From Tardiphaga robiniae (GTDB lineage Bacteria > Pseudomonadota > Alphaproteobacteria > Rhizobiales > Xanthobacteraceae), in assembly GCF_013359755.1 (NCBI RefSeq), contig NZ_JABMCJ010000076.1:186001-250000 (forward strand): a DNA stretch of 64,000 bases, in the 5' to 3' direction. Shown in pieces: positions 1 through 16,361 of the stretch. Positions within the stretch are counted from its first letter, which is position 1; each line of letters starts with the position of its first letter. The translations under genes and the position numbers were made by a program. Under the pieces are notes generated by a model, which was given only the letters and a program-made list of their open reading frames with translations, was not told the origin of the DNA and ran no database searches.

Positions 1-469
1 GTTCATCCAGCAGCAGCACCTTCGGCTTGGTGGCGAGCGCGCGGGCGATGGCAAGCTGCTGCTGTTGGCCGCCGGAGAGATTGCCACCGCGGCGGCCCTT
101 CATTTCCAGCAGCACCGGAAAGAGCTCGTAGAGATCGTCGGGCACTTCCTTCTCACCGGAGGCGACAAGGCCGGTCTCGATATTCTCCTTCACCGTCATG
201 TGCGAGAAGATCATGCGGCCCTGCGGGACATAAGCGAGGCCGCGCGCGACGCGCTCATAGCTCTTGAGCGCACCGAGCTCCTTGCCCTCCATGGTCACCG
301 AGCCGGACTTGGTCGGCACGATTCCCATCAGCGATTTCATCAGTGTGGTCTTGCCCATGCCGTTGCGGCCCATGATGGCCACGATTTCGTTGGGCTGCAC
401 TGAGACATTCAGGCCATGCAGGACTTCGCTCTGGCCGTAAGCGACGTGGAGATCGTTGATCGCGAGCAT
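1..469 (-). CDS. urtE: Urea ABC transporter ATP-binding protein UrtE (3' part outside window)
   Basis: One of two ATPases of the high-affinity urea importer, acting on the cytoplasmic face of the inner membrane. The visible 156 residues start at an ATG preceded by GGAG eight bases upstream. They contain Walker A GRNGMGKTT (residues 34-42), the ABC signature LSGGQQQ and a Walker B LLLDE just before the window edge, so roughly the last third of the protein is missing. It follows urtD with only about ten bases between them and is the last recognisable urt gene here. LivF-type amino-acid ATPases are similar, but the urtA-B-C-D order makes UrtE the better call. Confidence 0.93.
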   Translation of the reverse strand, partial: MLAINDLHVAYGQSEVLHGLNVSVQPNEIVAIMGRNGMGKTTLMKSLMGIVPTKSGSVTMEGKELGALKSYERVARGLAYVPQGRMIFSHMTVKENIETGLVASGEKEVPDDLYELFPVLLEMKGRRGGNLSGGQQQQLAIARALATKPKVLLLDE

Positions 470-479
470 GATGATCTCC

Positions 480-1235
480 TCAATGACCCAGATAGACTTC
501 GATGACCTTGGGATCGTTCTGGACCTTCTCCATGGTGCCTTCGGACAGGATCTGTCCCTGATGCAGCACGGTCACCTTGTGGGCGATGTCCTCGACGAAT
601 TTCATGTCGTGTTCGATCACCAGCACCGAGCGGTTCTTGATGATCGTATTGAGGAGTTCGGCCGTCTTGACGCGCTCGCTGACGCTCATGCCAGCAACTG
701 GCTCGTCGAGCATCAGCAGGTCCGGATCCTGGATCAGCAGCATGCCGATCTCGAGCCACTGCTTCTGGCCATGCGAGAGCACATCGGCATACATGTTGAG
801 GCGATCCTTCAGGAAGATCATCTCGGCGACTTCCTCGACGCGTTCGCGCACCGCCGCATCACGCTTGAACATCAGCGAACCGAACACCGAGCGCCCACGC
901 GGATAGGAAATCTCCAGATTTTCGAAGACGGTGAGATCGTCATACACCGACGGTGTCTGGAATTTGCGGCCGACGCCGGCCTGCACGATCTGGTTTTCCT
1001 TCAGCTTGGTCAGCTCCGTGCCACGGAACTGCACCGAGCCCGACGTGGCTTTGGTCTTGCCGCAGATCAGATCGAGGACGGTGGTCTTGCCCGCGCCATT
1101 GGGGCCGATGATGACGCGGATCTCATTCTCCTCCACATAGAAGGAGAGATCGTTGACCGCCTTGAAGCCGTCGAAGGAAACGGTGAGCCCTTCGACCGCG
1201 AGCAAAAACTCTTTGGGCTGATGTCCGATGAGCAT
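480..1235 (-). CDS. urtD: Urea ABC transporter ATP-binding protein UrtD
   Basis: Second ATPase of the urea importer, LivG-like, 251 residues, a normal length. Walker A GPNGAGKTT is at residues 44-52, a degenerate signature SHGQKQ at 153-158 (SHGQ replaces the usual SGGQ, as is common in UrtD) and Walker B LMLDEP at 173-178. The protein lies between urtC and urtE in the same direction with gaps of about ten bases, consistent with one transcript. It energises uptake through UrtB/UrtC of urea delivered by UrtA. Confidence 0.95.
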   Translation of the reverse strand: MLIGHQPKEFLLAVEGLTVSFDGFKAVNDLSFYVEENEIRVIIGPNGAGKTTVLDLICGKTKATSGSVQFRGTELTKLKENQIVQAGVGRKFQTPSVYDDLTVFENLEISYPRGRSVFGSLMFKRDAAVRERVEEVAEMIFLKDRLNMYADVLSHGQKQWLEIGMLLIQDPDLLMLDEPVAGMSVSERVKTAELLNTIIKNRSVLVIEHDMKFVEDIAHKVTVLHQGQILSEGTMEKVQNDPKVIEVYLGH

Positions 1236-1244
1236 GATGTCCCC

Positions 1245-2390
1245 TTACTCGGCCGGCGCGCCGTCGGCGGCGGATTTGATGGCCCAAGCCTTCTTGGATT
1301 TAGACGAGCGCATGGCAATCAGGCGATCGATGTGGCGCGCCACGTGATCGCGCCAGATGCCGGACAGGCCATTGGGGAAGAACAGCACCACGGCAATGAA
1401 CAAGCCGCCGAGGCCGAACAGCCAGAGCTCGGGGAAGGATTCCGACAGCATGGTCTTTGCGTAGTTCACCAGTAGCGTGCCGTAGACCGCACCGAAGATG
1501 GACATGCGGCCACCCACGGCCGTGTAGATCACCATCTCGATGGACGGCACGATGCCGACAAAGGACGGCGACATGAAGCCGATCTGCAGCGTGAACATGG
1601 CGCCGCCGATTGCCGCGAACATCGCCGCGGCACAGAAGGCGAAGATCTTGAAATTGGCGACGCTGTAGCCGGAGAAGCGGACGCGGTCCTCCTGTTCGCG
1701 CATCGCCACCAGGATGCGGCCGAGCTTGGTCAGGCGGATAAACTGCGCGGTGATGATACAGGCGAACAGCACGAAGACTTCGAAGAAGTAGAGAATGACC
1801 TTGGCGTGATCGGTGCGGATGTCCCAGCCGTTCAGCGTGCGCAGGTCGGTCATGCCGTTGATGCCGCCGGTGTAACCCTGCTGGCCGATGATCAGGATGG
1901 TGGCGATCGCTGCGATGGCTTGGGTGATGATGGCGAAATAGACGCCGCCCACGCGGCGTTTGAACATCGCAGCGCCGATGATGAAGGCCAGTAGCGTTGG
2001 CACCACGAGAATGGCGATGATCGTCAGCGTCAGCGAGTGAAACGGCTTCCAGAACATCGGCAGCGACGTGATCTGGTTCCAGTCCATGAAATCCGGAATG
2101 CCGGGGGTCGACTGGATCTTAGTGTTGGCGACGCTGGAGGCTTCCAGCTTCAGGAACATCGCCATGCAGTAGCCGCCGAGGCCGAAGAACACGCCCTGCC
2201 CGAGGCTTAGGATGCCGCCATAACCCCAGCACATCACAAGGCCCAAGGCGACGAAGGCATAGGTCAGATATTTGGCGACGAGGTTGAGACGAAACACATC
2301 GAGAAACAGCGGCAGGATCACCGCGAGCAGCAGCAGCAGCGACAGGAAACCGAGAAGCTCCGAGCGGTTGAAGAAGCGTGAATTGATCAT
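1245..2390 (-). CDS. urtC: Urea ABC transporter permease UrtC
   Basis: Inner-membrane permease of the LivM type, 381 residues with about ten hydrophobic segments. The N-terminal part carries the family stretch GYGGILSLGQGVFFGLGGY and the C-terminal part a conserved loop around FPNGLSGIW. It pairs with UrtB to form the transmembrane channel. The gene is 36 bases downstream of urtB and ten bases before urtD. The insert of about 40 residues after the second membrane segment (SSVANTKIQSTPGIPDFMDW) is typical of UrtC and separates it from amino-acid LivM proteins. Confidence 0.94.
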   Translation of the reverse strand: MINSRFFNRSELLGFLSLLLLLAVILPLFLDVFRLNLVAKYLTYAFVALGLVMCWGYGGILSLGQGVFFGLGGYCMAMFLKLEASSVANTKIQSTPGIPDFMDWNQITSLPMFWKPFHSLTLTIIAILVVPTLLAFIIGAAMFKRRVGGVYFAIITQAIAAIATILIIGQQGYTGGINGMTDLRTLNGWDIRTDHAKVILYFFEVFVLFACIITAQFIRLTKLGRILVAMREQEDRVRFSGYSVANFKIFAFCAAAMFAAIGGAMFTLQIGFMSPSFVGIVPSIEMVIYTAVGGRMSIFGAVYGTLLVNYAKTMLSESFPELWLFGLGGLFIAVVLFFPNGLSGIWRDHVARHIDRLIAMRSSKSKKAWAIKSAADGAPAE

Positions 2391-2426: not shown

Positions 2427-3353
2427 TTACTTGCGGACCTTGAGGGCGAACAGGCCCTGCGGCCGGATCATCAGGATCGCGACGATGGTGAGCAGCGTCA
2501 GCACTTTGGCCATCGAGCCGGACATGAAGAACTCCATGGTCGACTGCGCCTGGGAGATGGTGAAGGCCGAGGCAATGGTGCCGAACAGGCTGGCCGCGCC
2601 GCCGAACACCACGACGAGGAACGTGTCGACGATGTAGAGCTGGCCGGAGGTCGGGCCGGTCGAACCGATCATGGTGAAGGCGGAGCCCGCGATCCCCGCG
2701 ATGCCGCAGCCGAGGCCGAAGGTGTAGCGGTCGACCTTCTCGGTATTGATGCCGACGGCGCCGGCCATCACGCGGTTCTGCACCACGGCGCGAACCTGAC
2801 GACCCCAACGCGACTTGTACATGATGTAGGCGACCACCATGGTGATCCCCAGCGTCAGCACCATCACGAAGATACCGTTGATCGGCACCTCGATCGTATC
2901 GGTGACCTGCTTGGAGCCCATCATCCATTGCGGCAGCTCGACACCAACTTCGCGCGCACCGAACACCGAGCGATAAGCCTGCTGCAGGATCAGGCTGAGA
3001 CCCCAGGTCGCCAGCAGCGTGTCGAGCGGACGCTTGTAGAGATGCCGTATCAGCCCCCATTCGACCAACATCCCCAGCGCACCGGAGGCGATGAAGGCGA
3101 GGATCATGGCGACGAAGAAGTAGCCGGAGAACAGCGACGGCAGATGCGACTGGAAGAAGCTCGACGTCAGCCAGGTAACGTAGGCGCCGAGGATCATGAA
3201 TTCGCCATGCGCCATGTTGATGACGCCCATCTGCCCGAAGATGATTGCGAGGCCGAGTGCCATCAGCACATAGACCGAGAACAGGATCAGGCCGGCAAAG
3301 CCCTGCATTGCAAAGATGGCGCCAAGGTCGCCAATCGAATAGTCGCCGAACAT
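2427..3353 (-). CDS. urtB: Urea ABC transporter permease UrtB
   Basis: LivH-type inner-membrane permease, 308 residues, with about eight membrane segments and the family motif GVINMAHGEFMILGAY near the N terminus. It forms the channel with UrtC. The start ATG at 3353 is the first in frame. The 133 bases separating it from urtA hold two strong stem-loops (annotated separately), which may set a high ratio of binding protein to membrane subunits. Order and orientation match the standard urtABCDE operon. Confidence 0.95.
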   Translation of the reverse strand: MFGDYSIGDLGAIFAMQGFAGLILFSVYVLMALGLAIIFGQMGVINMAHGEFMILGAYVTWLTSSFFQSHLPSLFSGYFFVAMILAFIASGALGMLVEWGLIRHLYKRPLDTLLATWGLSLILQQAYRSVFGAREVGVELPQWMMGSKQVTDTIEVPINGIFVMVLTLGITMVVAYIMYKSRWGRQVRAVVQNRVMAGAVGINTEKVDRYTFGLGCGIAGIAGSAFTMIGSTGPTSGQLYIVDTFLVVVFGGAASLFGTIASAFTISQAQSTMEFFMSGSMAKVLTLLTIVAILMIRPQGLFALKVRK

Positions 3354-3486: not shown

Positions 3487-4746
3487 TTACTGGTAGCCCT
3501 TGGGGAACGGATCCGGCTCGATCAGTTCGGGCGTCTCGTAGACGACCTTGAACTGGCCATCGAGCTGGGCCTGGCCGACGCGGGCCTTGGACCACAGATG
3601 GTGGTTCGGATGGACCTTGACGTAGCCTTCCGGCGCCTTGGTGAATTCGATACCGGCAGACGCAGGTGCGATCTTGTCGATATCGAAGGAGCCGGCCTTT
3701 TCGACCGTCATTTTCCAGAGCCACGGGCCGAGATAGGCGGCCTGCGTCACGTCGCCGATCACGGTCTTCTCGCCCCACATCTTCTTGAAGGCAGCGACGA
3801 ATTCCTTGTTGTTCGGATTATCCAGCGACTGGAAGTATTTCATACAGGCATAGGCGCCCGCGATGTTTTCACCACCGATGCCGTCGATCTCGTCCTCGGT
3901 TACCGAAATGGTCAGCATGGTCTGCTTCGACAGGTCGATGCCGGCCGCCTTGAGCTGCTTGTAGAAGGCGACGTTGGAGCCGCCGACCACGGCCGCATAG
4001 ATCACGTCGGGCTTGGTCAGCTTGATCTTGTTGATCACCGAGTTGAACTGGGTGTGGCCGAGCGGGAAGTATTCTTCCCCCGACACTTTGCCGCCGAGCT
4101 TGCCCTCGATGTGCTTGCGGGCGATCTTCATCGACGTGCGCGGCCAGATATAGTCCGAGCCGATCAGATAGAAGCTCTTGCCGTTCTTGGTCTTGGAGAC
4201 CCAGTCGAGGCCGGCGAGGATCTGCTGGGTAGCTTCCTGACCCGTATAGATCACGTTCTTCGACTGCTCGAGACCTTCATAGAAGGTCGGGTAGTAGAGC
4301 ATGCCGTTATATTGTTCCATGACCGGCAGCACCGCCTTGCGGGAGGCCGAGGTCCAGCAGCCCATGATGGCAGCGACCTTGTCGTTGACCAGCAGCTTCT
4401 TGGCCTTTTCAGCGAAGGTCGGCCAGTCCGAGGCACCGTCTTCCTGGATGAACTTGATCTTGCGGCCGAGCACGCCGCCCATGGCGTTGATCTGGTCGAT
4501 GGCGAGCTTTTCAGCCTGAACCGAGCCGGTTTCCGAGATCGCCATCGTACCGGTGACGGAATGCAGAATGCCGACGGTAACTTCCGTATCGGTAACCGCA
4601 AGGCCGGTGGTATTGATGGCCGAGGTGGCCGGCGCCTGCGCAAAAGATGTGCGCGGAAGCAGCGACATTGCCGGCAAAGCCGCCATGCCCATCAGCAGTT
4701 TACGCCGCAACGGCGAGTGCAAGCCCGGTTTCTTCTCGTCTGACAT
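3487..4746 (-). CDS. urtA: Urea ABC transporter substrate-binding protein UrtA
   Basis: Periplasmic binding protein of the urea importer, 419 residues from the chosen ATG at 4746. The N terminus has a twin-arginine-like element (SPLRRKLLMGMAAL) followed by a hydrophobic stretch and a cleavage-like AQA at about residue 37. The body is a Peripla_BP type-1 fold with the UrtA-typical FYEGLEQSKNVIYTG and GDVTQAAYLG segments. Reading frame continues upstream to 4869, but that would place about 40 unrelated residues before the signal and run through the intergenic palindrome, so I reject that start. It is the first gene of urtABCDE. Confidence 0.95.
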   Translation of the reverse strand: MSDEKKPGLHSPLRRKLLMGMAALPAMSLLPRTSFAQAPATSAINTTGLAVTDTEVTVGILHSVTGTMAISETGSVQAEKLAIDQINAMGGVLGRKIKFIQEDGASDWPTFAEKAKKLLVNDKVAAIMGCWTSASRKAVLPVMEQYNGMLYYPTFYEGLEQSKNVIYTGQEATQQILAGLDWVSKTKNGKSFYLIGSDYIWPRTSMKIARKHIEGKLGGKVSGEEYFPLGHTQFNSVINKIKLTKPDVIYAAVVGGSNVAFYKQLKAAGIDLSKQTMLTISVTEDEIDGIGGENIAGAYACMKYFQSLDNPNNKEFVAAFKKMWGEKTVIGDVTQAAYLGPWLWKMTVEKAGSFDIDKIAPASAGIEFTKAPEGYVKVHPNHHLWSKARVGQAQLDGQFKVVYETPELIEPDPFPKGYQ

Positions 4747-4801
4747 TTCAACCCCACTGGTTCGAGTACGCCTATTGGTGAGGCAAGCATTGCTGAACTT
4801 G

Positions 4802-4842
4802 TGCGGTGCACGGATACGCGAGATCGCGTATACTGCACCGCA
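4802..4842. promoter_or_regulatory. 41-bp near-perfect palindrome between urtA and the permease-kinase gene
   Basis: Outer arms TGCGGTGCA (4802-4810) and TGCACCGCA (4834-4842) are perfect reverse complements. Inner arms ATACGCGA (4814-4821) and TCGCGTAT (4824-4831) are also perfect. Spacers are three and two bases outside and two bases in the centre. The site lies 56 bases upstream of the urtA ATG and 65 bases upstream of the kinase GTG. It could be a two-site operator, for example for the LuxR-type regulator encoded nearby, or a hairpin in the urtA leader. Symmetry is seen directly; the role is inferred. Confidence 0.6.
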
Positions 4843-4907
4843 AAATGCCGACGTAGGTTTTTGCATCACGCAAACATGCGTAGTTTGACAGGGTCAGGAG
4901 CGAAGTA

Positions 4908-7900
4908 GTGGCAGGGCGGCAGCGTATCGACCGCGTGAGACGCCAGTACAATCAATGGGTCGCCAACCAGACCCTGGAGGATTACGCACTCCGCTTTACG
5001 GCGAAGAGCGCCAGGCGCTGGTCCGCCGCGCGGGTCGCCAACACGGCATTGGGCGCCATTTCGTTTCTCGCCCTTGAGGCCATCGGCGGCACCATCACCA
5101 TCAATTACGGCATGACCAACGCCACCGCTGCGATCCTGGTGGTCAGCGTCATCATCTTCTGCTGCGGACTGCCGATCGCGTATTATGCCGCAAAATGCGG
5201 CATTGATATCGATCTCCTCACCCGCGGTGCCGGTTTCGGCTATATCGGCTCGACTGTTACCTCGCTGATTTATGCGTCTTTCACCTTCATCTTCTTCGCC
5301 ATCGAGGCGGTCATTCTCGCCTCGGCGCTGGAGATGTGTTTCGATATTCCACGCCCCATCGGCTACCTGATATCGGCCGTGGTCATCATCCCGCTGGTGA
5401 CCCATGGCATTACGCTGATCAGCCGTTTTCAGCTCTGGACGCAGCCGATCTGGCTGGTGCTCAACCTGCTGCCTTTCGCGGCCATCGCCTATGCCAGCCG
5501 CGACTCCTTCGTGGCCTGGACCAAATTTCCGGGCGACCACGGCAGCGCCGCCGGCCATCTCGATCTCCTGCTGTTTGGCACGGCCGCTTCGGTCGTATTC
5601 TCGCTGGTCGCGCAGATCGGCGAACAGGTCGACTTCCTGCGCTTCCTGCCGCGCGACCGCCGCAGCTCGCGTGCGAGCTGGTGGGTGGCGCTACTGTGCG
5701 CGGGCCCGGGCTGGATCATTGTCGGCGCAATCAAGCTGCTGGCCGGCTCGTTCCTCGCCTATTTCGCACTGACCCACGGCGTTTCGGCCGAACACGCCGC
5801 CGAGCCCGCGCATATGTATCTCGAAGCGTTTCGCTATGTGCTGTCGCAGCCTGATCTGGCGCTCGCTTTGACAGGCACCTTCGTGATCCTGTCGCAGCTC
5901 AAGATCAACGTCACCAACGCCTATGCGGGCTCGATCGCCTGGTCGAACTTCTTCTCGCGCCTCACCCACAGCCATCCCGGCCGCGTCGTCTGGCTGGTGT
6001 TCAATGTGCTGGTCGCGCTGCTGCTGATGGAAATCGGCGTCTACAAGGCGCTGGAGCAGACGCTGGCGCTGTATTCCAATGTTGCGATTGCCTGGGTCGG
6101 CGCGCTGGTCGCCGATCTGGTCATCAACAAGCCGCTCGGACTGCGCCCGCAGCAGATGGAGTTCAAGCGCGCGCATCTCTACGACATCAACCCGGTCGGC
6201 GTCGGCGCCATGCTGGCCGCCACCGTGATGTCGGTCAGCGCCTTCTACGGCCTGTTCGGCCCGACGGCCAAGGCACTGTCGCCGTTCGTAGCCTTGCTTA
6301 CCGCGCTTGTGACCGCGCCGATCATCGCCTTCGCGACAGGCGGGAAATACTACATTGCCCGCAAGCCGAAGCGCGCCTGGCAGAACATGGCAGCGATCCA
6401 GTGCTGTATCTGCGAACATTCGTTCGAGCCCGAGGACATGGCGCATTGCCCGGCCTATGCCGGCCCGATCTGCTCACTGTGCTGCTCGCTCGATGCGCGT
6501 TGCCACGATCTCTGCAAGCCGCATGCGCGGATCGACGCACAGATGTCGGCGACGTTCGGCAAATTGCTGCCGGAGCCGATCCTGGCCCGGCTCAATTCGC
6601 AGCTCGGCCATTATCTTGGCGTGTTCATGATCGCTGCCGGCCTCGTCGGCCTGACGCTGGGGCTCATCTATCTGCAGACCTCCGCCGCATCGCCGGGAGA
6701 CAGTGCGCAGGTCTCGGAAGTGCTGTGGAAAGTGTTCTTCGCGCTTGCGATCATCATCGGCGTGGTGGCGTGGCTATTCGTGCTGGCCAAGCAAAGCCGT
6801 CGCGCCGCCGAAGCTGAGACCAAGCGGCAGACCACCCTGCTGATGCAGGAAATCGACGCGCACAAGCGCACCGACGCCGAACTGCAGCGCGCCAAGGAAG
6901 TCGCCGAATCCGCCAATCTCGCCAAGAGCCGCTATGTGGTCGGCCTCAGCCACGAGCTGCGATCGCCGCTCAATGCGATCAGCGGCTATGCGCAGCTATT
7001 GGAACAGGACGAGAGCCTGCAGACCCGCCCGCGCGATCAGGTGCGCGTCGTCAAGCGCAGCGCCGATCATCTCTCCGGACTGATCGACGGCATTCTGGAC
7101 ATCTCCAAGATCGAGGCCGGACGTCTGTATCTGTCGCGTGACGAAGTCCGTCTCACCGATTTCCTCGATCAGCTCGTCGGCATGTTCCGCCTGCAGGCCG
7201 CCGCCAAGGGCATCGATTTCGTGTTCCGGCGGCCGAACATCCTGCCCACCGTGGTCTATGCCGACGAGAAGCGGTTGCGCCAGATCCTGATCAACCTGCT
7301 CTCCAATGCCATCAAGTTCACCCAACACGGCAGCGTGCAGTTCGTGATCCATTACCGCAGCCCGGTCGCCGAATTCGAGATCATCGATACCGGCCCAGGC
7401 ATCCGCCCCGACGATCTTGAACGCATCTTCGCGCCGTTTGAGCGTGGCGCGCTCGGCGCGGCGCAGCCGCATACGGGCACCGGCCTGGGTCTCACGATCT
7501 CGAAACTGCTTGCGGGTGTGATGGGCGGCGATATCCGCGTTAGCAGCGAGGTCGGCACCGGCAGCACGTTCCGCGTCAAGATGCTGTTGTCCGAAGTGAC
7601 CAACCCGACGCGTATCGCGCCGGTGGACGCGCCGATCTATGGCTATCACGGTATCAGAAAGACCATTCTGGTCACCGACGACGATCCGACGCAGCGCGAC
7701 CTCTTGCGTCAGGTGCTGACGCCGCTGGGCTTCATTCTTCTGAGCGCGCCCGATGGCCAGGCCTGCCTCAGCCTCGCCCAGCACTGCCGGCCCGATCTGT
7801 TCCTGCTGGATATTTCCATGGCCGGCATGGACGGCTGGACCGTCGCCGAAAGGCTACGGTCGTCGGGCCATCATCAGGCGCGTATCCTGATGGTCTCGGC

Positions 7901-8282
7901 CAGCGCGCTGGAAGCCCATGGCACGCCGCTCGCCCAGCCATTCCATGACGGCTACCTCATGAAGCCGATCGAACTGCCGCGGCTGCTGGAACAGATCGGA
8001 CAACTCCTGAAGATCGAATGGCAATACGAACGCGACGAAGTGGCACCGCTGCCGCAATGGACGCCCAATAGCGGCACACGGCCGCCCGTGCATCATGTAG
8101 AGGAACTCATTAGCCTTGGGCAGATGGGGCACATCCGCGCCATCCAGTTAAAGCTCGACGAAATCGGCAATGAACATCCCGAACATACCGACTTCGTCAC
8201 GCAGATGCGCTCGCTGATCGATCGCTTCGACCTCGATCAATACATGGCCACCTTGAAGACGCTGTACACCTATGACCACTGA
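4908..8282 (+). CDS. NCS1-type permease fused to hybrid sensor histidine kinase/response regulator
   Basis: An inner-membrane protein of 1124 residues. Residues about 40-480 form a block of some twelve membrane segments resembling NCS1 purine/cytosine/allantoin/hydantoin permeases. A segment with nine cysteines follows (C499, C500, C502, C514, C522, C525, C526, C532, C536), then two more membrane helices (about 568-590 and 608-628). A coiled linker leads to HisKA with SHELRSP (H682), N box N796/N800, DTGPG (827-831) and GTGLGL (857-862). A receiver domain has acidic D924-D926, phospho-acceptor D968 and K1019. The GTG start has CAGGAG about seven bases upstream. It overlaps the next response-regulator gene by 11 bases. 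By analogy with CbrA, where a solute symporter is fused to a kinase, it probably couples recognition of a nitrogen compound to signalling. The ligand is unknown; divergence from urtA suggests urea or a purine breakdown product. Confidence 0.88.
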   Translation: MAGRQRIDRVRRQYNQWVANQTLEDYALRFTAKSARRWSAARVANTALGAISFLALEAIGGTITINYGMTNATAAILVVSVIIFCCGLPIAYYAAKCGIDIDLLTRGAGFGYIGSTVTSLIYASFTFIFFAIEAVILASALEMCFDIPRPIGYLISAVVIIPLVTHGITLISRFQLWTQPIWLVLNLLPFAAIAYASRDSFVAWTKFPGDHGSAAGHLDLLLFGTAASVVFSLVAQIGEQVDFLRFLPRDRRSSRASWWVALLCAGPGWIIVGAIKLLAGSFLAYFALTHGVSAEHAAEPAHMYLEAFRYVLSQPDLALALTGTFVILSQLKINVTNAYAGSIAWSNFFSRLTHSHPGRVVWLVFNVLVALLLMEIGVYKALEQTLALYSNVAIAWVGALVADLVINKPLGLRPQQMEFKRAHLYDINPVGVGAMLAATVMSVSAFYGLFGPTAKALSPFVALLTALVTAPIIAFATGGKYYIARKPKRAWQNMAAIQCCICEHSFEPEDMAHCPAYAGPICSLCCSLDARCHDLCKPHARIDAQMSATFGKLLPEPILARLNSQLGHYLGVFMIAAGLVGLTLGLIYLQTSAASPGDSAQVSEVLWKVFFALAIIIGVVAWLFVLAKQSRRAAEAETKRQTTLLMQEIDAHKRTDAELQRAKEVAESANLAKSRYVVGLSHELRSPLNAISGYAQLLEQDESLQTRPRDQVRVVKRSADHLSGLIDGILDISKIEAGRLYLSRDEVRLTDFLDQLVGMFRLQAAAKGIDFVFRRPNILPTVVYADEKRLRQILINLLSNAIKFTQHGSVQFVIHYRSPVAEFEIIDTGPGIRPDDLERIFAPFERGALGAAQPHTGTGLGLTISKLLAGVMGGDIRVSSEVGTGSTFRVKMLLSEVTNPTRIAPVDAPIYGYHGIRKTILVTDDDPTQRDLLRQVLTPLGFILLSAPDGQACLSLAQHCRPDLFLLDISMAGMDGWTVAERLRSSGHHQARILMVSASALEAHGTPLAQPFHDGYLMKPIELPRLLEQIGQLLKIEWQYERDEVAPLPQWTPNSGTRPPVHHVEELISLGQMGHIRAIQLKLDEIGNEHPEHTDFVTQMRSLIDRFDLDQYMATLKTLYTYDH

Positions 8283-9195
8283 ATCGAAAAAACGCGACGT
8301 CGCACTGGTGGTCGATGACTCGCCGGAAACATTGCGGCTACTGACCGACGCGCTCGATGGCGCCGGCATGACCGTGATGGTGGCCATGGACGGCGCTGCG
8401 GCCATGCGGATCGTCGAACAGATCACGCCGGACATCATCCTGCTGGATGCCGTCATGCCGGGAATCGACGGCTTCGAAACCTGTCGCCGGCTGAAGCGCG
8501 ACGCGGGCCTCGGCGACGTGCCCGTGATTTTCATGACCGGGCTGTCCGAGACCGAACACATCGTGCGCGGCCTCGAGGCCGGCGGCGTCGATTACGTCAC
8601 CAAGCCGATCATCATCGAGGAAATGCTGGCGCGGATCCGCGTGCATCTCGCCAATGCGCGGCTGACGCAGAGTGCGCGCACCGCGCTCGATGTCTCCGGA
8701 CGCTTCCTCCTTGCCGTGAGCAACAAGGGCAATATCCTCTGGGCCACGCCGCAGGCGCAGAAATTGCTCAGCGATCACCTGATCGCCGCCCCCAATGATG
8801 AATTGCTGCTGCCACCAGTCATGATGCAGTGGCTCGAGCAGATGCAGCGACCGGGCGCCAAGCCGGCACCGTCATCGGGCTTTCCGAGCAACGAGCTGCT
8901 GCGTCTGCAATATATGGGGAAAGTCGGCTCCGACGAATTCTTGCTGCGTCTCGCCAAGGAGAATGCGCCAACCGCTCCCGCCGAATTCAGCAAGGAGCTT
9001 GGCCTCACGGGCCGCGAGGGCGAAGTGCTATCCTGGCTCAGCAAGGGCAAGAGCAACCGCGATATCGCGCAGATACTCGGCCTCTCACCGCGCACCGTCG
9101 ACAAGCATCTTGAGCAGATCTACGCCAAACTTGGCGTCGAGAACCGTACTGCGGCTGCGGCAATTGCGGTGAATGCGAGCCACAGGCGGCAATAG
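8272..9195 (+). CDS. Response regulator, REC plus LuxR-type HTH
   Basis: A 307-residue transcription factor. An N-terminal receiver domain (about 9-125) has the acidic pair D15-D16, phospho-acceptor D59 in LLDAVMPGIDG and K111 in YVTKP. A middle region of about 100 residues matches no domain I know, though it resembles a PAS-like stretch. The C-terminal LuxR/FixJ helix-turn-helix (about 240-300) includes LTGREGEVLSWLSKGKSNRDIA and LSPRTVDKHLEQIYAKLGV. Its ATG lies inside the end of the permease-kinase gene, so the two are translationally coupled and very probably form one two-component system. The likely targets are the urt operon or its own operon. Confidence 0.9.
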   Translation: MTTESKKRDVALVVDDSPETLRLLTDALDGAGMTVMVAMDGAAAMRIVEQITPDIILLDAVMPGIDGFETCRRLKRDAGLGDVPVIFMTGLSETEHIVRGLEAGGVDYVTKPIIIEEMLARIRVHLANARLTQSARTALDVSGRFLLAVSNKGNILWATPQAQKLLSDHLIAAPNDELLLPPVMMQWLEQMQRPGAKPAPSSGFPSNELLRLQYMGKVGSDEFLLRLAKENAPTAPAEFSKELGLTGREGEVLSWLSKGKSNRDIAQILGLSPRTVDKHLEQIYAKLGVENRTAAAAIAVNASHRRQ

Positions 9196-9391: not shown

Positions 9392-10597
9392 ATGACACGC
9401 CAGTTCCTGGTGTGCGCAGCCGCGCTCACGCTTTGGACGTCCACCACCTCCGCTCAGGTCTCCGACGACGTCGTTCGCATCGGCGTTCTCACCGATCTCT
9501 CAAGCTGGGGGCGCGACAACAGCGGCCCCGGATCGGTTGAAGCCGCGAAGATGGCGCTCGAGGAATTCGGCCCGACCGTTCTAGGGAAACCGATCGAGAT
9601 CATCAGCGCCGATCATCAGATGAAGTCTGACGTCGGCATCCAGATTGCTCGCAACTGGTTTGATGCCGGCAAGGTCGATGCCGTGGTCGATATCCCGAAC
9701 TCCGCCATCGCCATCGCGGTTCATAATCTGGCGAAGGACCGCAACAAGATCGCGCTGCTGTCTGGCCCCGGCGCAAGCACGCTCACGGATGAGCTGTGCA
9801 GCCCCAACACGGTCCACTTCACCTACGACACCTATGCGCTTGCGAAGGTGACGGCCTCTGCTGTGGTCGCCGGCGGTGGAAAGTCATGGTTCTTCATCAC
9901 GGCCGACTACGCCTTCGGCAATCAGCTTGAACAGGACGCGACGCGCTTCATCAAGGCGAGTGGCGGCACCGTGCTGGGCGGCGTTCGCCATCCGACCAAT
10001 ACCGCCGACTTCTCGTCCTTCGCGCTGCAGGCGCAGAACTCGAAGGCTGAAGTCGTCGCCTTCGCCAATGCCGGCCAGGACACTGACAATTCGATCAAGC
10101 AATCCGGTGAATTCGGCCTCGTCAAGGGTGGCCAGAAACTGGTCGGCCTGTTGATGTTCGACACCGACGTTCACGCAATCGGACTGGAGGCGGCCCAAGG
10201 CACCTACCTCACCACCGCGTCCTACTGGAACATGGATGACAAGACGCGCGCATGGTCGAAGAAATTCTTCGAACGCACCAAGGTGATGCCGACCATGATC
10301 CAGACCGGCGTCTATGGCTCGGTGCTGCACTATCTCCAGGCCATCAAGGCTGCCGGCACCGACGATCCGGCCAAGGTAATGACCAAGATGCGCGAGCTGC
10401 CGATCGAGGACACCTTCGTGCATGGCGGCAAGCTGCGCGAAGACGGCCGCGTCATTCGCGACATGTATCTGGCCCGCGTGAAGAAGCCGTCGGAATCCAA
10501 AGAGCCTTGGGACTATCTCGACATCATCAAGACCGTGAAGGGCGATGACGCCTTCCGGCCCATCTCTGAATCGAAATGCCCATTGCTGAAGAAGTAA
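9392..10597 (+). CDS. ABC transporter substrate-binding protein, branched-chain amino acid type (Peripla_BP_6)
   Basis: A 401-residue periplasmic binding protein with a Sec signal peptide (cleavage near STTSAQ, residue about 22). The mature part begins with VRIGVLTDLSSWGRDNSGPG, typical of type-1 periplasmic-binding folds of the LivJ/aromatic-acid group. The start is supported by GGAGAG seven bases upstream. No cognate permease or ATPase gene is adjacent. The next gene, seven bases on, encodes a flavoprotein, so this protein probably captures the substrate of the catabolic enzymes that follow. The substrate cannot be told from sequence; aromatic or terpenoid-like acids are possible. Confidence 0.85.
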   Translation: MTRQFLVCAAALTLWTSTTSAQVSDDVVRIGVLTDLSSWGRDNSGPGSVEAAKMALEEFGPTVLGKPIEIISADHQMKSDVGIQIARNWFDAGKVDAVVDIPNSAIAIAVHNLAKDRNKIALLSGPGASTLTDELCSPNTVHFTYDTYALAKVTASAVVAGGGKSWFFITADYAFGNQLEQDATRFIKASGGTVLGGVRHPTNTADFSSFALQAQNSKAEVVAFANAGQDTDNSIKQSGEFGLVKGGQKLVGLLMFDTDVHAIGLEAAQGTYLTTASYWNMDDKTRAWSKKFFERTKVMPTMIQTGVYGSVLHYLQAIKAAGTDDPAKVMTKMRELPIEDTFVHGGKLREDGRVIRDMYLARVKKPSESKEPWDYLDIIKTVKGDDAFRPISESKCPLLKK

Positions 10598-14082: not shown

Positions 14083-15405
14083 ATGGCTCTTTACGGCCCG
14101 ACACGTCGTGCCTTTGTGCAGGGGGCGCTCGCCACCAGCGCGCTTGGCCTCACCGGCATTCCAGCTTTCGCCGATCCCGCCTGGAAGAAGTATGCAGGCA
14201 CCACGATTGAAGCCAACCTGATCAAGGGTCCGCGCGGCGAACTGCTGCAGAAATACGCCTCCGAATTCACGGAACTGACCGGCATCAAGGTCGAGTCCGA
14301 AGTGATCCCGGAGCAGCAGCAGCGCCAGAAGGCCGTGATCGAGCTCACCTCCGGCAAGCCCAGCTTCGACGTCGTGCATGTCAGCTACCACGTCCAGAAG
14401 CGCCAGTTCGAAAAGGCCGGCTGGCTCGCCGATCTCACCGGCTTCATGAAGGATCCGAACCTGACCGCGCCGGATTTGCGCGTCGATGACTTCTCCGCCG
14501 GCGGCCTGCAATTCGCCCAGAACGACAAGGGCGAGATGCACTCGCTGCCGTGGTCGGTCGACTATTTCATCCTGTACTACAACAAGGAGATGTTCGCGAA
14601 GAAGGGCGTCGCAGTTCCAAAGACCATGGATGAGATGGCGGTAGCTGCAGAAAAACTCAACGATCCCGCCAACGGCATCTACGGCTTCACCGGCCGGGGC
14701 TTACGCAATGCCAACATGACGCTGTGGACCAACTTCTTCCTGAACTATGGCGGCGAATTCCTCGACGCCAAGGGCAACATCCTGACCGATGGGCCCGAGG
14801 CGATCGAAGCGACCAAGATGTATCAGCGCCTCCTCACCAAGACGGCACCTCCCGGCGTCGCCGGTTTCAACTGGATGGAGTCGATGGCATCGCTGACGCA
14901 GGGCCGCGCGGCCATGTGGATCGACGGTGTCGGCTGGGCGCCGCCCATCGAGGATCCCAATGGGTCGCGCGTGGTCGGCAAGATTGGCTACACCGTCGTG
15001 CCCGCCGGACCGAAGGGGCAATTCTCCGCCGCCTATGGCGACGGCATCGGCATCGCCAAGACCAGCACCAAGAAGGAAGCCGCCTATCTCTATTGCCAAT
15101 GGGCGGTGTCGAAGACCATGGGCGCCCGGCTGTTGCAGAGCGGCGGCGGCGTGCCGTTCCGCAATTCGATCCTCAATGACGAGACGGTGCGCAAGGGCGT
15201 GAAGAACCAGGAGTGGCTGGATTCGGTGATCGCCTCGGCCAAGATCAGCAAGCTCGGCCTGCCGGTCATCGTGCCTGTCGCCGAATTCCGCGACCTTGTC
15301 GGCGCCGCTGTGACTGCGACTTTGGCAGGCGCGGATCCGGCTACCGAGCTGAAGAAGGCCCACGAACAGTTCCGGCCGATTCTGGAGCGCAGCGAAAAAT
15401 CGTGA
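14083..15405 (+). CDS. Extracellular solute-binding protein family 1, Tat-type signal
   Basis: A 440-residue periplasmic binding protein of the sugar/glycerol-phosphate type. The N terminus carries a twin-arginine-like signal (PTRRAFVQGALATSALGL, arginines at 8-9) ending near AFADPA. The mature part has the family opening TTIEANLIKGPRGELLQKY and a later WIDGVGWAPP segment. GGAGG sits ten bases upstream of the ATG. It is the first gene of a three-gene importer with the two permeases downstream. The ligand could be a sugar, polyol or polyamine-like compound and is not identifiable here. Confidence 0.86.
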   Translation: MALYGPTRRAFVQGALATSALGLTGIPAFADPAWKKYAGTTIEANLIKGPRGELLQKYASEFTELTGIKVESEVIPEQQQRQKAVIELTSGKPSFDVVHVSYHVQKRQFEKAGWLADLTGFMKDPNLTAPDLRVDDFSAGGLQFAQNDKGEMHSLPWSVDYFILYYNKEMFAKKGVAVPKTMDEMAVAAEKLNDPANGIYGFTGRGLRNANMTLWTNFFLNYGGEFLDAKGNILTDGPEAIEATKMYQRLLTKTAPPGVAGFNWMESMASLTQGRAAMWIDGVGWAPPIEDPNGSRVVGKIGYTVVPAGPKGQFSAAYGDGIGIAKTSTKKEAAYLYCQWAVSKTMGARLLQSGGGVPFRNSILNDETVRKGVKNQEWLDSVIASAKISKLGLPVIVPVAEFRDLVGAAVTATLAGADPATELKKAHEQFRPILERSEKS

Positions 15406-16361
15406 GTGAACTGACAGCGGGAAAGGCAGTCGCCAAAACGACCGCAACGGTCGCGGCCGAAACGGCGACTGCGAAGAAGAACGAGTGGCGGCCAATTTCC
15501 TATTGGCCGTTCGTGATCCCAGCGATGATCGTCGTCATGGCGGTCATCATCTTCCCGTGGGTCTATACGATCTGGATGAGCCTGCACGAATGGAAGGTCG
15601 GCCAAGCGCCGACCTTCGTCGGCTTCGCCAATTATCTCAGGCTGCCAAGCGATGCGCGTTTCGTGGAATCCGTGGGGCACACCCTGGTCTACACGGCGCT
15701 GTCAGTCGCGCTGCCGCTGATCCTCGGCACATTGGCGGCAGTGATCTTCAACAACAAGTTTCCGCTGCGCGGCTTCTTCCGCGGGCTCTTCATCCTGCCG
15801 ATGATGGCGACACCGGTCGCCATCGCCCTGGTGTGGACGATGATGTTCCACCCGCAGCTCGGCGTGCTGAACTATCTGCTGTCGCTGTTCGGCCTGCCGC
15901 CATCGCTCTGGGTGTTCCATCCCGCCACCGCGATCCCGTCGCTGGTGCTGGTGGAGACGTGGCAATGGACGCCGCTGGTCATGCTGATCGTGCTCGGCGG
16001 CCTCAGCGCTATTCCGACCGAGCCCTATGAAAGCGCGCAGATCGACGGCGCGACCCCGTGGCAGACCTTCCGCTACATCTCGCTGCCGATGATCATGCCG
16101 TTCCTGTTCATTGCGGCGATGATCCGCATGATCGACGCCGTGAAGAGCTTCGACATCATCTTCGCCATTACGCAAGGCGGCCCCGGCAGCGCCTCGGAAA
16201 CCATCAACCTGTATCTCTACAGCGTCGCCTTCGTCTATTACGACGTCGGCTACGCCTCCGCGATCGTGGTGGTGTTCTTCGCGCTCATCGTCGCGCTCGC
16301 CGGCGCGCTCTTGCATCTGCGTCAGCGCACCCACTGGAACGAAGCCGGAGGCAGCGCCTGA
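15402..16361 (+). CDS. Sugar-type ABC transporter permease (MalF/UgpA-like)
   Basis: An inner-membrane permease of 319 residues with six predicted helices. The ATPase-docking EAA loop reads EPYESAQIDGATPWQTFRYI near residue 210. The start is a GTG overlapping the stop of the binding-protein gene (GTGA), so translation is coupled. The frame stays open upstream to 15213, but that part lies within the binding-protein gene and is discarded. It should pair with the next permease. Confidence 0.86.
   Translation: MSELTAGKAVAKTTATVAAETATAKKNEWRPISYWPFVIPAMIVVMAVIIFPWVYTIWMSLHEWKVGQAPTFVGFANYLRLPSDARFVESVGHTLVYTALSVALPLILGTLAAVIFNNKFPLRGFFRGLFILPMMATPVAIALVWTMMFHPQLGVLNYLLSLFGLPPSLWVFHPATAIPSLVLVETWQWTPLVMLIVLGGLSAIPTEPYESAQIDGATPWQTFRYISLPMIMPFLFIAAMIRMIDAVKSFDIIFAITQGGPGSASETINLYLYSVAFVYYDVGYASAIVVVFFALIVALAGALLHLRQRTHWNEAGGSA

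Follow-up and report, generated by a model that had tools for sequence, protein, structure and literature searches.

Several bacterial signalling systems are built on transporters. In the SLC5/STAC histidine kinases CbrA, CrbS and RpuS, the kinase is attached to a transporter domain of the LeuT fold. Both CrbS and RpuS are of the hybrid type and have LuxR-type partners, and an inverted-repeat operator is required by CrbR, as described in the available portions of three reports (PMC13022988, PMC9100948, PMC5715377). The Kuenenia ammonium sensor Amt-histidine kinase likewise joins a nitrogen-compound transporter domain to a histidine kinase, according to the accessible part of its description (PMC5764959). 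Here we analyse a 64,000-nucleotide stretch of DNA from Tardiphaga robiniae (the window, coordinates of which are used throughout), in which a hybrid histidine kinase gene with an N-terminal NCS1-type permease domain (4908..8282, + strand) stands divergently beside a urtABCDE operon. Our results suggest, with a probability of roughly three in four, that this gene encodes a transceptor-type sensor kinase for urea or short-chain amides, based on NCS1 rather than on SLC5/STAC, whose LuxR-type partner controls urtABCDE-fmdA.

The gene begins at a GTG codon and encodes 1124 amino acids. An NCS1-type permease domain (approximately residues 40-485; 5025..6362) is followed by a cysteine module (C499-C536; 6402..6515), by two extra transmembrane helices (approximately residues 565-626; 6600..6785) that lead into a long helix ahead of the kinase, and finally by the hybrid histidine kinase itself. 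The last 11 bp of the open reading frame overlap the gene of a REC-LuxR response regulator (8272..9195, + strand; Response_reg and GerE matches), its partner. This architecture, from the permease-like domain and the nine cysteines to the overlapping regulator, had been proposed from the letters alone, and the original prediction is confirmed in each element. Pfam scores lie well above the cut-offs for HisKA (residues 673-738; 6924..7121), HATPase_c (786-893; 7263..7586) and the receiver domain REC (920-1030; 7665..7997). In an alignment of 81 sequences (the window sensor and 80 homologues), which underlies all residue counts given here, the phospho-acceptor H682 and the HATPase residues N796, N800, D827, G829 and G857 are invariant, and D968 of REC is present in 78. 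With catalytic residues intact in all three domains, the kinase appears live. In 77 of 80 loci a homologue of the regulator lies downstream of the sensor, in the same orientation.

Some loci carry other forms of the gene. L103, L104 and L151 have shorter variants that lack REC (open frames of 889-911 residues); in place of the usual regulator there is no more than a weak receiver-like match, which lies on the other strand, and a formamidase gene is nearby. L141, L142, L143 and L144 bear an insertion between permease and cysteine module, giving open frames of 1216-1365 residues. A 623-residue kinase frame at 6842-8710 of L157, which begins within the cysteine module and lacks the permease altogether, may be a truncated or stand-alone form.

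The genomic company kept by the sensor is conserved. In 80 loci chosen for taxonomic spread from the family, order, class and phylum matches, before their neighbours were inspected, UrtA is present in 68, and in 63 it is divergent and no more than 3.5 kb away; the expectation that adjacency to urt genes would prove other than random was thus borne out. A full UrtA is missing from 12 loci. Urease genes lie no more than 8 kb away in seven of these (L128, L135, L136, L139, L141, L142 and L143), three of which have urtD as well, and FmdA is in the locus in three others (L103, L104 and L151).

Between the sensor gene and the divergent urtA lies an inverted repeat, ATACGCGAGATCGCGTAT (4814..4831), which we predict to be an operator. 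It is flanked by outer arms at 4799-4810 and 4834-4845, TTGTGCGGTGCA and TGCACCGCAAAA, complementary at 11 of 12 positions, so that 4799-4845 forms a 47-bp near-palindrome; longer outer arms surround the repeat in many Bradyrhizobium-Afipia loci as well. For comparison, 260 bp was taken upstream of each of 125 sensors (window included) with a divergent urtA within about 2 kb. The commonest dyad is common to 45 of these regions, shuffles giving 3 at most, and the repeat consensus, ATACGY-N6-RCGTAT, occurs with one mismatch or none in 81 of 125 regions versus 1 of 125 shuffled ones; 26 regions show four or five mismatches, so that nothing recognisable as a site is present in their 260 bp. The window site is the single perfect match in its own genome. 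Allowing one mismatch, that genome holds 30 sites compared with 19 for the reversed pattern, and we therefore claim no wider regulon there.

A position matrix built from 99 sites gave no match in 1,560,381 shuffled bases and none in 2,896,059 first-order simulated bases. Of the 146 sites that it located across 160 loci, sensor and urtA share 108, urtA has 16 to itself and the sensor 6, and 16 belong to neither; these counts are not independent at sensor-upstream regions, because the matrix was trained on those regions. In 23 loci, two of which contributed to the training set, more than 600 bp separate urtA from the sensor; here urtA has a site in 15 and the sensor in 4, one locus having both. 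Among the 16 sites belonging to neither, 12 stand 70-130 bp before fmdA, one precedes an allophanate hydrolase gene, one a porin-like gene adjoining urtA, and two (L106 and L117) have no assigned gene. Separated fmdA genes have their own site in 11 of 22 cases, those directly behind urtE in 0 of 62. Methylovirgula has sites before fmdA and before an aliphatic amidase gene. No site was found by the matrix in the loci of six solo permeases (kinase-free relatives, considered below) from elsewhere, in the REC-less variants, in seven urease-linked sensor loci, or in L112, L108, L137, L246 and L247. Since the sites precede urtA, fmdA, amidase and allophanate hydrolase genes, the predicted targets are genes of urea and amide uptake and hydrolysis.

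The original prediction had assigned the membrane part to NCS1 rather than SLC5, and the label is right, judged by homology and modelled structure, though not obvious. Direct scans did not yield the profile match to a permease family: no Pfam or NCBIfam transporter model matched sensor residues 1-640, no Pfam transporter family (PF02133 included) was found in the membrane part of any of 37 diverse members, a PF02133 search of the window's own genome matched another locus only, and a PDB profile search with the 37 members gave 0 matches. The match comes instead through a homologue. A Klebsiella pneumoniae solo permease from a urease operon, 43% identical to the sensor's membrane part over solo residues 20-534, passes PF02133 with 38.1 bits against a cut-off of 23.5, and a weaker homologue, L152 (E 5e-32), passes it too, with a TIGR00800 match below that model's cut-off. 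For an AlphaFold2 model of residues 1-660 (pLDDT 81, pTM 0.81), the five best Foldseek matches in PDB are all CodB or Mhp1 (best CodB match TMt 0.77, E 6.9e-9), SLC5 proteins ranking lower; an hhalign comparison with the NCS1 protein of the window's own genome is moderate (60%). It is because of the 43%-identical solo, the predicted CodB/Mhp1 fold and L152 that we call the domain NCS1-type. Filing the sensor with the SLC5/STAC kinases was rejected on fold; Pfam scans of the window sensor and the 37 members returned no SSF (SLC5) match and no STAC match, the presence of the STAC model in the library being unchecked. Transmembrane helices (TM) 3, 6 and 8 hold many invariant residues, and conserved motifs mark TM6 (QxxEQxDxxRF) and TM8 (QxKINxxNxYAGS).

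Seven of the solo relatives listed among the matches were read. Those of Klebsiella and Acinetobacter lie inside urease operons; fmdA adjoins the solo in Moraxella and is near it in Tsukamurella; an aliphatic amidase gene adjoins it in Arthrobacter and is near it in Methylovirgula; the Streptomyces solo, one of the seven, has no urease, formamidase or amidase neighbour. One Methylovirgula cluster assembles formamidase, fused sensor, regulator, solo permease and aliphatic amidase, without urt genes in the stretch read. The Klebsiella solo at 9944-11551 of L243 (a 5.4-Mb record labelled plasmid) and the Acinetobacter solo at 5663-7270 of L244 are annotated as cytosine or allantoin permeases; from their operons, we regard them as candidate urea permeases. 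On the tree the seven solos form one clade within the fused set; with very long branches to the outgroup and SH-aLRT as the sole measure of support, the tree does not place fused and solo forms in order of origin.

A first alternative concerns the cysteine module. Its nine cysteines (C499, C500, C502, C514, C522, C525, C526, C532 and C536) include a variable one, C500, which is Cys in 15 of 81 sequences; the other eight are invariant in 81/81, a conservation that had been anticipated, and follow the pattern CxxC-x11-C-x7-CxxCC-x5-C-x3-C. A metal site is likely by this pattern. In a PDB profile search the module was matched by zinc fingers and rubredoxins, mostly along a single CxxC stretch, and we do not take these matches as evidence of its fold. 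The two helices behind it have mean Kyte-Doolittle values of 2.14 and 2.46 (81 sequences). It is conceivable that the membrane domain is a structural anchor and the module the real sensor (zinc, iron-sulphur or redox), the urea linkage then reflecting nitrogen or nickel/metal status. The eight invariant cysteines would suit such a role, as would the persistence of the module in solos, complete in Methylovirgula and reduced in four of the seven (Klebsiella, Acinetobacter, Moraxella and Streptomyces). However, TM3, TM6 and TM8 are as a group also rich in invariant positions, two actinobacterial solos, those of Arthrobacter and Tsukamurella, keep the permease motifs with most cysteines gone, and the solos that carry the module do so without any kinase. 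We consider this alternative unlikely. As the module also occurs in solo permeases, it is a feature of the permease family and not of the kinase fusion alone.

A second alternative turns on the substrate pocket. NCS1 members classically handle nucleobases, allantoin and purines, PF02133 names these compounds, and the solos bear cytosine or allantoin permease annotations; the sensor could accordingly read a precursor of urea and induce urea uptake in advance. In CodB, cytosine is sandwiched by Trp108 and Phe204, two positions that are aromatic across NCS1, and Thr278 and Thr279 contribute their hydroxyls to the Na+ ligands, as set out in the part of that study available (PMC9379551). In a low-identity alignment, Phe204 corresponds to sensor L233 (81/81), Thr278 to K332 (81/81) and Thr279 to I333 (80/81), and the NCS1 combination of aromatic clamp and Na2 threonines is absent from the sensor family. 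The SLC5-based sensor kinase CbrA likewise has a lysine in its Na2 site, according to the portion of the report at hand (PMC13022988). From these residues we infer a Na+-independent site that is not built for nucleobases. The conserved NCS1 aromatic pair being Phe/Leu and Leu here, and the enzyme neighbours seen being formamidase, amidase, urease and allophanate hydrolase, a purine-type sensor is quite improbable; allantoin or purine catabolic genes were not seen in the annotated loci read, a reading that included no systematic search for them. Of the proposal that the gene is a transporter-based sensor for urea, allantoin or purines, the first part is supported and urea, with short-chain amides, stands on the neighbours, whereas allantoin and purines are set aside on neighbours and pocket residues. 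It is because the neighbours of fused and solo forms are urt, urease, formamidase, aliphatic amidase and allophanate hydrolase genes that we narrow the ligand to urea or short-chain amides.

That the permease domain, without binding any ligand, senses flux of the ATP-binding cassette importer by contact would account for the tight linkage of the two, but it is very improbable, given that L136, L141, L142, L143 and L103 have urease or formamidase and no importer within the 20-kb locus, and that the Methylovirgula sensor accompanies a solo permease without urt genes in the stretch read (in either case an importer could lie elsewhere in the genome).

Several observations weigh against a urea/amide sensor acting through this operator, in addition to the dependence of the site counts already described. 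No site was found at either gene in 5 of the 23 loci with urtA more than 600 bp away or in 20 of the 120 with urtA within 600 bp, and 11 of the 22 separated fmdA genes are without a matrix site. L110 and L112, the last two of the 12 loci that have no full UrtA, have neither urease nor FmdA; the sole marker gene of L112 is the regulator, while L110 has the inverted repeat. UrtA comes in two types, one at least 60% identical to the window protein (41 loci, 39 with FmdA in the locus) and one below 60% (27 loci, 0 with FmdA and 3 with urease), and one ligand may not fit all, because the two importer types have different enzyme neighbours; on the tree the importer type switches at least four times, a single sensor family serving both. 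The membrane assignment has its own difficulties: three other close solos scanned with PF02133 did not match, the K. pneumoniae and Acinetobacter solos match no NCBIfam model at 1e-6, and against CodB hhalign gives a weak profile match (10% probability), for which reason the residue equivalence to CodB rests on a low-identity alignment. Finally, residue 129, at the position of CodB Trp108, is still Phe in 57 of 81 sequences (window included) and Leu in 24, so that half of the aromatic clamp may remain.

In the mechanism that we propose, the NCS1-derived permease domain would bind urea or a short-chain amide (formamide or acetamide), and its conformational change would be passed through the cysteine module, which is predicted to be cytosolic, and the two-helix membrane hairpin to the kinase core. 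This kinase, which has a receiver domain of its own, would control phosphorylation of the overlapping REC-LuxR regulator, which would bind ATACGY-N6-RCGTAT between the divergent promoters and switch on both urtABCDE-fmdA and the sensor gene.

A more ambitious picture is tentative, and we put it at appreciably less than even odds. It would see here an as yet unnamed NCS1 branch that transports urea and short-chain amides without sodium, with a lysine in the Na2 site. Its solo members would be the urea permeases of urease operons in Klebsiella and Acinetobacter, and its fused members working transceptors in which a metal-bound cysteine module couples permease to kinase. The two forms would then amount to a second class of LeuT-fold transporter-kinase sensors, one that evolved independently and has a single conserved operator code across Alpha- and Gammaproteobacteria. 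The suggestion of an NCS1-type urea permease in urease operons, for proteins now annotated as cytosine or allantoin permeases, matters beyond the sensor itself.

The importer genes of the window occupy the - strand, with urtD, urtC, urtB and urtA immediately left of the sensor gene. The start of urtA (3487..4746) was re-placed at the ATG of MSDEKK, before a signal-like stretch, RRKLLMG; its longest open reading frame extends to 4869. It is followed by urtB (2427..3353), urtC (1245..2390; translation 66% to the annotated urtC of L245), urtD (480..1235; 70% to urtD of L245) and the 5' part of urtE (1..469), which continues beyond the window. In the window's own genome, a formamidase gene, fmdA (12502-13731 of L161), lies about 50 bp beyond urtE. 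The neighbouring genes, described in the original prediction as a urea importer, are indeed urtABCDE, but since the operon ends in a formamidase gene the importer may move amides. In the available text of one study (PMC3098086, 2010), a urt-like cluster of Bradyrhizobium japonicum, which includes aliphatic amidase as well as formamidase-family genes, is argued to move an amide and not urea; in that of another (PMC13209695, 2026), formamide uptake is suggested for a urtABCDE-fmdA-amiE cluster of Pseudomonas veronii, the strain having grown on formamide and acetamide. On the other side of the sensor, a second UrtA-like periplasmic binding protein (9392-10597; weak TIGR03407 match) starts what by eye seems a separate cluster, with genes resembling those of flavoproteins and short-chain dehydrogenases, and that cluster probably handles a different substrate.

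Relatives are widespread. In genome samples that overlap one another, matches at E <= 0.001 occur in 47 of 149 genomes for the family, in 64 of 249 for the order, in 22 of 337 for the class and in 60 of 398 for the phylum; 5 in the order, 1 in the class and 9 in the phylum sample have weak matches alone (best E above 1e-20), some being ordinary NCS1 proteins. A scan of named genomes confirmed at least 597 stretches, of which 80 were kept, with Bradyrhizobium, Rhizobium, Sinorhizobium, Marinobacter, Alcanivorax and Pseudomonas among their genera. A scan of viral contigs found no relative. The permease domain is matched by 534 plasmid records in PLSDB, solo permeases included, 342 of them from Klebsiella and 78 from Sinorhizobium. 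On the one such Klebsiella plasmid read, a conjugative plasmid of Klebsiella variicola (L245), the sensor adjoins urtABCDE and a formamidase gene, with an inverted-repeat site at L245:11878; sensor and a regulator-like frame (15368-16255) span L245:12001-16255, the latter frame being absent from the incomplete gene table of PLSDB. A preprint on Klebsiella CG307 treats UrtABC/AmiF, 'UTS', as a urea transporter in the part available, and its main text does not contain the terms histidine kinase, two-component or sensor kinase (PMC13060141); we do not equate that system with the plasmid cluster.

Our literature search found no paper describing an NCS1-type kinase fusion, nor a dedicated urea/amide sensor kinase for the widespread urtABCDE operons; if our reading is true, one would now be supplied together with an operator and predicted targets. 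The accessible part of one paper lists, for a second urtABCDE operon of Ectopseudomonas, a hybrid kinase along with a LuxR response regulator, without further analysis there (PMC13296017, 2026). The window shares its urtABCDE-fmdA layout with the formamidase operons described previously (PMC3098086, PMC13209695), and the available portions of those accounts do not discuss the sensor. With CodB and Mhp1 the sensor has the predicted fold in common, and with CodB additionally the D..RF motif of TM6 and the TM8 asparagine; it differs in the Leu at the Phe204 position, in the Lys and Ile at the Na2 threonines, and in the appended cysteine module and kinase. The Kuenenia sensor, by contrast, uses the Amt fold and responds to ammonium, as far as its description is available (PMC5764959). 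CbrA, CrbS and RpuS are the nearest in design, and yet the present sensor departs from them in carrying no PAS domain by Pfam, in a linker composed of a cysteine module and a membrane hairpin, in its link to urea and amide genes, and in its NCS1 fold, which, if our reading is true, would provide a second scaffold for how a LeuT-fold transporter drives a kinase.

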